Assembly: GCA_023251775.1 (NCBI GenBank)
Contig: JAHEYC010000029.1
Span: 1-39,055 of the forward strand
DNA from: Sphingobacteriaceae bacterium
Lineage (GTDB): Bacteria; Bacteroidota; Bacteroidia; B-17B0; Aurantibacillaceae
Length of the DNA: 39,055 nt
Direction: 5' to 3'
Part shown: one piece after another, positions 37,317-39,055 of the stretch
Position numbering within the stretch: position 1 is the stretch's first letter
How the letters are laid out: every line of letters begins with the position of its first letter
Position numbers and translations under genes: made by a program
The notes under the pieces: generated by a model
Databases searched by the model: none
What the model was told of the DNA's origin: nothing
The model's input: the letters and a program-made list of their open reading frames with translations, nothing else

Positions 37317-37455
37317 TTGTCCATTATTTTCATCTAAGTAAGCTCAACTCAACCGACCTTAATACCTAGCTTTCCATGCTTCGTGACGGATGTAAGAAAA
37401 TAATGCAATTTGTATAACATTTTGAACGTAAAAAATTGATTTTGGCGAAACCAAA

Positions 37456-37547
37456 CAGGTAATTCTTCGTACTATGAATAGGTATTTCTACCTATGAAAA
37501 ATAGGTATTTATACGCTTGAAGATTGGGTATTTCTACTCTTTCGGGC
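37456..37547 (+). repeat. four direct repeats with exact 23-bp period upstream of a response regulator
   Basis: Cores CAGGTAATTCTTC (37456-37468), TAGGTATTTCTAC (37479-37491), TAGGTATTTATAC (37502-37514) and TGGGTATTTCTAC (37525-37537) begin exactly 23 bases apart. They match the second copy at 10, 13, 12 and 12 of 13 positions. The second copy also forms an inverted repeat ATAGGTA-TTTC-TACCTAT (37478-37495). The array ends directly in front of a candidate -33 box, the place expected for activator binding. It is not coding and there are no CRISPR-type spacers. Confidence 0.75.
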
Positions 37548-37570
37548 CCCATAAATATGTTCTAATATTG
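37540..37570 (+). promoter_or_regulatory. candidate promoter of the CheY-like gene
   Basis: TTTC (37540-37543), 19 bases, TAATATTG (37563-37570; one mismatch to TAnnTTTG). The transcript would begin about 12 bases before the ATG at 37589. The repeat array lies immediately upstream. Confidence 0.45.
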
Positions 37571-37588
37571 GAGTAAGACAAAGAACAC

Positions 37589-37951
37589 ATGAGCAGAAAA
37601 ATAGTAATAGTAGATGATGACCCTACCAGTAATTACATAAGTGAATTCATCTTATCTTCTATGTATCCTAATCTAGAAATAGTAAGTTTCGCTGATCCTT
37701 TAGTAGCTCTTGAAAAAATGCCTTCTATGGATCTATGTAAGGATTGCATTATCTTACTCGACCTTAACATGCCAGAGATGAATGGTTATGAATTTGTTGA
37801 TCTTCTTGATAAGAAGGGATTAGAATGCAAAGTTGTGATCCTTACCTGTTCAAAGAATCTCATGGATAAAGAGTACTCAAAAAGATACGACAAAATAAAA
37901 GGGTACTTAAGTAAGCCCTTAACACAAGATAATATGAGTATGTTCATTTAA
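37589..37951 (+). CDS. single-domain response regulator (CheY-like)
   Basis: 120 residues, one receiver domain and no output domain. Active-site residues are complete: acidic pocket D9, D10, D11 in VDDDP, phospho-acceptor D58 in LLDLNMPEMNGYE, T86 in ILTCS and K109 in LSKPL. The end is short, with helix 5 trimmed (PLTQDNMSMFI). Such proteins pass phosphate between histidine kinases and other partners, or act by binding a target. The gene stands behind an elaborate promoter region, so its own expression is probably regulated. Its kinase is not evident unless it is the PAS protein at the right edge. Confidence 0.93.
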   Translation: MSRKIVIVDDDPTSNYISEFILSSMYPNLEIVSFADPLVALEKMPSMDLCKDCIILLDLNMPEMNGYEFVDLLDKKGLECKVVILTCSKNLMDKEYSKRYDKIKGYLSKPLTQDNMSMFI

Positions 37952-38080
37952 TAAAATGAATTACGTTCTTTGAATTGTTGTAGTTAATAAACTACATTAA
38001 CTTAGTTTTTGGAGCTATTTTAAGATTCCTAAATTATATGTAGATTTGAATTGTTAATTTTAGATTTATTAAATTAACAC

Positions 38081-38101: not shown

Positions 38102-38731
38102 ATGTCTAGGGTACTCGTAGCGGATAACTATCCATTAAACCGAATAGGAATATGCCAAGTTTTGGAGGCACATATTCCAAAAATTGAGATCACAGAGGCA
38201 TCTTGCACCAAAACAGCTATGAAACAGCTTAAGTTAAAGCGTTTTAATTTGCTGGTACTTGCACTCTCACATCCGGGCAAAAATAACATCGATCTGCTAA
38301 AGAGTATAAAACTGAAGCATCCCAAAACGCCGGTTCTTGTGATCTGCATTTATCCTGAATCCATTTATGGATATAGGGCCCTGAGTGTTGGAGCTTCAGG
38401 TTATATAACCAGAGAAACTCCCGTTAATGATCTTTTATTAGCAGTAAAAAAAATATTGAAAGGCGATAGCTATATTTCAAGCGCACTTGCGCAAAATATG
38501 CTATCTAAGATCAATACTCGCACCAAGGTAAGTTCGATAGAATTATTAAGTAATCGCGAATTACAAATTCTTCAGCTTATGGCTACCGGCAAAAAAACTC
38601 ATCTTATAGCATCCGAAATAAGTTTAAGCGTAAGTACGGTTGGTACATATCGTCAAAGGATCTTCTCAAAACTCGACATGAAAACGGATGCTGAGTTAAC
38701 ACGCTTTGCTATCGACAACGCTTTAGTTTAA
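38102..38731 (+). CDS. LuxR/NarL-type regulator with a degenerate receiver domain
   Basis: 209 residues. The N-terminal part (1-125) aligns with NarL-type receivers: VLVADNYPLNRIG, VLALSHPG, GASGYITRE. The phospho-acceptor Asp is replaced by A54, the second acidic residue by N9, and the conserved Lys by R104, so classical phosphorylation is not expected. The C-terminal part (about 148-207) is an intact LuxR helix-turn-helix: LSNRELQILQLMATGKKTHLIA, then SVSTVGTYRQRIFSKLDMK. It should bind DNA, presumably controlled by a ligand, a partner protein or its own level. It is 150 bases after the CheY-like gene and in front of a PAS-domain gene. Confidence 0.92.
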   Translation: MSRVLVADNYPLNRIGICQVLEAHIPKIEITEASCTKTAMKQLKLKRFNLLVLALSHPGKNNIDLLKSIKLKHPKTPVLVICIYPESIYGYRALSVGASGYITRETPVNDLLLAVKKILKGDSYISSALAQNMLSKINTRTKVSSIELLSNRELQILQLMATGKKTHLIASEISLSVSTVGTYRQRIFSKLDMKTDAELTRFAIDNALV

Positions 38732-38814: not shown

Positions 38815-39055
38815 ATGCACACATCTACATCACACATATCAAAAAAATTCATCTCCGGACTTACAACACATTTGCCGGGCGTATTATTTTGTGCGAATAA
38901 CGACGAACATTTCTCTTTGTCATATATTTCAGAGAACTGTGTAAAACTTACCGGCTATACACAACACGAACTTTTGGAAGATGGTTTATTGTTCATGATT
39001 GATCAGCATGACCACCGATCGATCAAAGAAAAAAAAGATCTTGCATTCTCAACAA
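38815..39055 (+). CDS. PAS-domain signalling protein, N-terminal part (cut by window edge)
   Basis: The frame is open from ATG 38815 to the window end (80 residues seen). It begins MHTSTSHISKKFISGLTTHL and shows a PAS fold: PGVLFCANNDEHFSLSYIS, then ENCVKLTGYTQHELLEDG and the FMIDQHDHRSI loop that follows helix F in PAS domains. Without a signal peptide, it is probably cytoplasmic or has later membrane segments. Most proteins with this start are histidine kinases or diguanylate cyclases; in this phylum next to two response regulators a sensor kinase is the likeliest. The output domain is outside the window. Confidence 0.8.
   Translation, partial: MHTSTSHISKKFISGLTTHLPGVLFCANNDEHFSLSYISENCVKLTGYTQHELLEDGLLFMIDQHDHRSIKEKKDLAFST

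Follow-up and report, generated by a model that had tools for sequence, protein, structure and literature searches.

The window considered here is the whole analysed stretch of 39,055 nucleotides from a Sphingobacteriaceae bacterium, and all positions refer to it. Upstream of a response-regulator gene it carries an array of GGTATTTNTAC-like copies starting at 37458 (weak), 37481, 37504 and 37527, in steps of 23 bp. The copies, with their ranks in a matrix scan of the window, the candidate promoter element and the downstream genes are as follows.

37459..37468, + strand: putative operator copy 1 (weak), GTAATTCTTC, in the 23-bp register; matrix rank 5 of 39,038 positions.
37478..37495, + strand: putative operator copy 2, a perfect inverted repeat with its core GTATTTCTAC at 37482-37491; matrix rank 1 of 39,038.
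37505..37514, + strand: putative operator copy 3, GTATTTATAC, in the 23-bp register; matrix rank 2 of 39,038.
37528..37537, + strand: putative operator copy 4, promoter-proximal, GTATTTCTAC, ending 25 nt before the -7 box; matrix rank 3 of 39,038.
37563..37570, + strand: candidate sigma-A -7 box TAATATTG, recognized from its sequence, with five of the six fixed letters of TAnnTTTG (consensus from PMC9723704).
37589..37951, + strand: single-domain (receiver-only) response regulator of 120 aa, the presumed target (Pfam Response_reg, 7.1e-15).
38102..38731, + strand: NarL/LuxR-type response regulator with a degenerate-looking receiver (Pfam GerE, 1.4e-15; Response_reg, 3.5e-13).
38815..39055, + strand: a further gene, start only, cut by the contig end (80 aa present, no Pfam match).

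By eye, the acidic, Asp, Thr and Lys positions of the 37589 receiver are all there. Among 40 genomes of the same genus, the best other match to this receiver gene is 38% identical, and no array was found in the stretch covered at the locus of that match. In the 38102 protein, compared by eye with four relatives (L188-L191), the phospho-acceptor Asp of the receiver is replaced by Ala and the conserved Lys by Arg, and this LuxR-type protein may act independently of phosphorylation. The 38102 gene could be co-transcribed or separate, with TAGATTTG at 38041-38048 as a possible -7 box of its own (by eye).

In the 23-nt register of 37453-37544, the array reads, row by row, AAACAGGTAATTCTTCGTACTAT / GAATAGGTATTTCTACCTATGAA / AAATAGGTATTTATACGCTTGAA / GATTGGGTATTTCTACTCTTTCG. 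The 13-mer TAGGTATTTCTAC is matched at 13/13 positions by copy 2 and at 12/13 by copies 3 and 4, and all three retain GTATTTNTAC. The four copies at 23-bp steps described in the original prediction are confirmed, copy 1 being weak, with a match at 10/13 positions and GTA followed by TTC instead of TAC, so that one half-site is kept. Its claim that one copy is a perfect inverted repeat is borne out by copy 2, which lies inside ATAGGTA-TTTC-TACCTAT (37478-37495; 7-bp arms around a 4-nt centre). The array unit, GTA-N4-TAC, has the form of a dimer site, and the dyad symmetry expected of such a site is perfect in copy 2, retained as GTA-N4-TAC in copies 3 and 4, and present as a half only in copy 1. 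The periodicity was assessed over 37317-37588 against dinucleotide-preserving shuffles in which any period from 5 to 59 was counted; none of 300 shuffles reached the observed period-23 self-match score with windows of 30, 36, 46 or 69 nt, and 7 of 300 did so with a 13-nt window. The description of the array as helically phased, on the other hand, does not stand. A step of 23 bp, about 2.2 turns, rotates successive sites by about 70 degrees, and the spacing is neither whole-turn nor conserved, being 23 bp here, a mixture of 23, 24 and 25 bp in homologous arrays of sister species, and 21 bp in one further locus (L349).

Searches of the whole genome to which the window belongs found the 13-mer with at most one mismatch 9 times, against 13 in the reversed control, the sole exact match being the array. 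A pair of units at 23 bp with up to three mismatches gave three matches, all of them the array, and none in the control; no further array was found in this genome by that pair search. Exact GTATTTMTAC cores are in mild excess (36 against 26 in the reversed control), and 33 of them lie outside the array. All 27 of these that were examined fall within open frames of at least 100 codons, which implies a regulon of essentially one array. A matrix made from 30 palindromes of ten array-bearing sister promoters, with the window's genome excluded and the sites themselves picked for GTA-N4-TAC, placed the four copies at ranks 1, 2, 3 and 5 of the 39,038 positions, with scores of 21.5 for copy 2, 14.6 for copy 3 and 12.6 for copy 4. 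Across 101,713 other positions of the same genome, in loci chosen in part for carrying the core, chance gave scores of up to 14.5 and 13.9. These are as high as the score of copy 3 and above that of copy 4, and only copy 2 and the clustering of the copies stand out.

The promoter proposed earlier, TTTC-N19-box, is present, with TTTC at 37540-37543 and, after 19 nucleotides, TAATATTG at 37563-37570. PMC9723704 places the Bacteroidota sigma-A -7 box TAnnTTTG at -12 to -5. The centre of copy 4 lies 30.5 nt 5' of the start of the box, and this assignment would therefore centre the operator near -42.5 and predict a transcription start near 37575. The same geometry, within 1 nt, is seen at 8 of 17 TAGGTATTTMTAC sites in another genome, MAG SZAS-3 (G425). 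This genome contains 105 GTATTTMTAC sites against 31 in the reversed control, and 40 stretches taken around sites among the matches listed hold 50 exact cores, about half of which are in open frames. The intergenic cores are mostly of the common form AAAATAGGTATTTATAC, often followed by CCTA. Among the 17 TAGGTATTTMTAC sites of these stretches (one in an open frame, some paired within one array), eight have a box with at least five of the six letters of TAnnTTTG 24-26 nt downstream, a count reached in 0 of 2000 mononucleotide shuffles, and nine have no box at that distance. The 25 nt between copy 4 and its box falls inside this range. MAG SZAS-3 has 14 GerE matches; in the stretches covered, an exact core lies upstream of just one of them, C29:141186, and at one locus (L147) a NarL-type regulator has sites in its own promoter. 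We also note a 23-bp operator pair before a Pvc16 (extracellular contractile injection system) gene in the same MAG (L103, 2420-2452, and L148), and its position suggests response-regulator control of the contractile injection cluster.

The same unit recurs in the genus of the window before a two-component operon. In one genome (G010), a 23-bp pair lies upstream of genes for a small protein, a membrane protein, a kinase and a regulator, and a search of 40 same-genus genomes with the membrane protein of G010 gave matches in 23 of them. In the 12 best-matching genomes, the operon encodes a small protein (~104 aa), a membrane protein (~217 aa), a kinase (~267 aa) and a NarL-type regulator (~220 aa), the kinase and regulator domains having been Pfam-tested in G010 and the window's genome only. 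In ten of these 12 genomes, the 260 bp preceding the small gene contain between two and four GTA-N4-TAC palindromes at intervals of 23-25 bp, and the remaining two have one palindrome each. None of 18 weaker operon loci has an array at 23-25 bp spacing; a pair of palindromes at 21 bp occurs in one of them and overlapping copies in another, single palindromes occur in six (the window's own genome among them), nine have none, and one locus is without the small gene. The search suggested earlier, for the core with 23-bp spacing before other genes, found only the array itself in the window's genome with up to three mismatches; in the genus, arrays of the same unit precede the two-component operon in 10 of the 12 genomes. 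Together with the spacing at 8 of 17 sites in MAG SZAS-3, these same-genus arrays support the earlier proposal that activator sites are arrayed directly upstream of a promoter.

The final palindrome of the sister operons lies some 140-150 nt upstream of the small gene rather than at -42, and a standard -7 box about 25 nt from it was not found in these operons, except weakly in one (L344; 27 nt), so that the geometry differs there. In seven loci (L336-L341 and L343), the array is flanked on one side by the kinase-regulator operon and on the other by a small gene in divergent orientation (up to 64-76 codons), which is DUF3606 in the one tested (L339), and a single array may serve both divergent transcription units. 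Across genomes, the constant part of the unit is GTA-N4-TAC. The centre is TTTM in the sets searched for that, and other AT-rich or mixed centres occur in the units of the sister operons. The flanks often pair and vary by genome, for example, TAGGTA..TACCTA, GAGTA..TACTC and TACGTA..TACGTA, and such paired, genome-specific letters are a better fit to a dimer site than to a simple repeat.

Beyond the genus, a class scan for two exact GTATTTMTAC cores 3-33 nt apart found them in 12 of 395 genomes, against 2 of 395 in the reversed control. The pair at 23 bp, searched in 84,980 species genomes, gave 29 stretches, which group into 15 non-redundant Bacteroidota loci, five extra copies of two of those, and nine loci of other phyla. 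A NarL-type regulator is encoded within 2 kb of the pair at 5 of the 15 Bacteroidota loci, where 0.22 would be expected from 84 GerE matches in ten genomes (0.30 if all 116 matches count), and at none of the nine loci of other phyla. GTATTTMTAC sites precede operons of DUF7793, HisKA_3 kinase and NarL regulator genes at two loci (L093 and L279), and precede DUF7793 genes at a third (L293), where the NarL gene adjoins on the opposite strand. The sites of these three loci have differing arms, and L093 and L293 share a divergent aminotransferase class I/II gene. The core reaches about twice its control or more in 6 of 19 genomes (G425, G398, G423, G281, G116 and G427). This enrichment is not general, as shown by counts of 25 against 23 in the control for G010, 61 against 75 for G426, and 13 against 17 for G431. 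When TAGGTATTTMTACCTA was allowed one mismatch, 118 of the 395 genomes of the class scan gave matches, with many in the control also; of 20 follow-up stretches (exact matches and a few others), two (L282 and L283) lacked an exact core, and in roughly half of the remaining ones the site had no signalling gene nearby. Twelve dispersed pairs, for example GTATTTATACTACTAAAAAAGGGTATTTATAC, were counted in G398; the ten at L041, L046, L049 and L051-L057 are spaced at 22 bp, except for L055 at 21 bp, and could represent another regulon or a mobile repeat. The 22-bp pairs of G398 and the 33-bp pairs of G281 may be separate regulons or dispersed repeats and were treated as background. Matches in L030 and G132 were set aside for their tandem-repeat appearance. 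A near-identical dispersed repeat containing GTATTTCTAC units was seen at five loci of the Azobacteroides MI.4_1 MAG (L092, L096, L100, L105 and L116).

The window's own genome has the operon of small protein, membrane protein, kinase and regulator, split over two contigs, C11 and C86, which appear to be neighbours, as the membrane-protein gene of the operon is split between their ends. The regulator on C86 combines a receiver with a GerE domain, and a HisKA_3 kinase is encoded alongside. The promoter of this operon has no array; it has one clear site, GTATTTTTAC, with TATATTTG 27 nt downstream. On C11, a single-domain response regulator gene precedes the operon, and its product is 31% identical to that of the window over 123 positions. 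The DNA-binding domain of the C86 regulator is 65% identical to that of the self-linked regulator C29:141186 of MAG SZAS-3, 60% identical to that of G010, and 39-53% identical to those of the other aligned sister regulators, most array-bearing ones being at 46-48%. Within its own genome, the corresponding values are 44% for an unlinked regulator on C73, nearly as high as for most array-bearing sister regulators, 33% for the LuxR-type 38102 protein and 31% for a regulator on C94. The contrast is clearer over the whole protein, at 42-48% to array-bearing sister regulators against 25% to the C73 regulator. In a tree of 90 NarL-type regulators, array-linked labels fall on 7 of 17 rows in one clade, against 5 of 73 outside it; 48 of 500 shuffles of the labels were as parsimonious, so this clustering is not significant. 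The recognition helix RT[IV][DE] is found in 9 of 11 array-linked regulators and also in some array-free ones.

Based on these observations, we consider it reasonably probable that the copies are four tandem operators for the trans-encoded NarL/FixJ-type regulator of C86, through which the single-domain response-regulator gene at 37589 would be activated. What is observed directly is the array with its palindromic unit, how far it lies from the -7 box, and the recurrence of such arrays before a two-component operon in sister species. That the sites are bound, which protein binds them, that the effect is activation and not repression, and that a signalling link results are proposed from sequence. 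Under this proposal, each GTA-N4-TAC palindrome would accommodate a single dimer of a response regulator of the NarL/FixJ type, and copy 1 would be a weak or half-decayed version of the site. At about -42.5, the dimer nearest the promoter would touch RNA polymerase in the geometry of a class II activator, and those farther upstream would increase occupancy. The C86 regulator, acting in trans and with its own HisKA_3 kinase, is the likely binder. Once activated, it would fill the tandem sites and switch on the gene at 37589, and the signal would be handed from one two-component system to another through the receiver protein encoded there.

It is less likely, though still worth weighing, that the neighbouring LuxR-type protein (38102) is the one that binds the array, perhaps in a phosphorylation-independent manner, and thereby controls its own neighbourhood. 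Its gene begins 565 nt past copy 4, and array-linked NarL genes elsewhere often adjoin their arrays. Near-whole GerE domains number about five in the genome (7 matches), too few for such closeness to the array to be probable by chance. The original prediction had put this protein forward for DNA-binding tests. It is not supported as the preferred binder, since its receiver looks degenerate and no array was found in the roughly 3.6 kb covered at the loci of its four closest same-genus relatives (L188-L191; 39-41% identity). Its recognition helix, STVGTYR, is unlike the RT[IV][DE] of most array-linked regulators, and its DNA-binding domain shares, as given above, just 33% identity with that of the C86 regulator.

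We regard it as improbable that the array is instead a repressor or silencing site at which several dimers sit beside the promoter. Palindromic arrays adjoining promoters can also act in repression, and the distant placement of the last palindrome in the sister operons would suit this role. Class II activation, however, is a better fit both to the recurrent 24-26 nt to the -7 box in MAG SZAS-3 and to the array before 37589, which does not overlap the -7 box. Finally, a tandem repeat without a regulatory role, be it a slippage product or a dispersed repeat that lies before the gene by chance, has near-identical dispersed copies around such pairs in some genomes in its favour (the Azobacteroides MI.4_1 loci) and is very improbable here, given that the linkers diverge while copies 2-4 hold GTA-N4-TAC, that 10 of 12 sister genomes repeat the unit at 23-25 bp in front of an orthologous operon, and that the 23-bp-spaced pair is found once in its own genome.

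Returning to the C86 regulator as the binder, a wider hypothesis, which we advance tentatively and at rather less than even chances, is that GTA-N4-TAC arrays constitute the operator code, across Bacteroidia, of one group of NarL/FixJ regulators, with the centre and arms of the site co-varying with the recognition helix. The group in question mostly has the RT[IV][DE] helix and a HisKA_3 kinase. If such a code is indeed shared, sequence could be enough to link orphan sensor-regulator pairs with the genes they control, and those targets would include single-domain response regulators, implying cross-talk, and the contractile-injection gene cluster of MAG SZAS-3. At least seven GerE matches are present in each of 8 of 10 Bacteroidota genomes counted. 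A recurring, recognisable operator that keeps a repeated distance from the -7 box would make target genes predictable from sequence, and what was an orphan motif becomes a testable sensor-regulator-target link from a two-component system to a free-standing receiver protein.

The original prediction could not match the array to a named regulator. The array can now be linked to a kind of regulator, the NarL/FixJ-type response regulators. Among the matches listed, the open-licence literature held no named NarL/FixJ regulator with a GTA-N4-TAC operator, and the literature containing the 10-mer held no Bacteroidota regulator by title. The C86 and window regulators have NCBIfam matches that include NarL, UvrY and RcsB of Escherichia coli. 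The C86 regulator falls far below the curated cut-offs of these families (120.8 of 250 bits for NarL, 116.4 of 280 for UvrY and 46.6 of 235 for RcsB), and the matches of the window regulator are likewise far below them. The NarL heptamers and RcsB boxes also differ from GTA-N4-TAC. Sites of the NarL/FixJ family are short inverted repeats for dimers and adjoin their target promoters. The candidate binders resemble this family in having both Response_reg and GerE domains together with a HisKA_3 kinase, and the array differs from its known operators in the GTA-N4-TAC core, the T-rich centre (TTTM) and the tandem arrangement of up to four sites at 23-25 bp. With respect to Bacteroidota sigma-A promoters, the element at 37563-37570 resembles TAnnTTTG, as given in PMC9723704; no -33 match is needed here, and the operator is positioned just upstream of that region. 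The array probably works like a NarL/FixJ-type operator array in a class II position.
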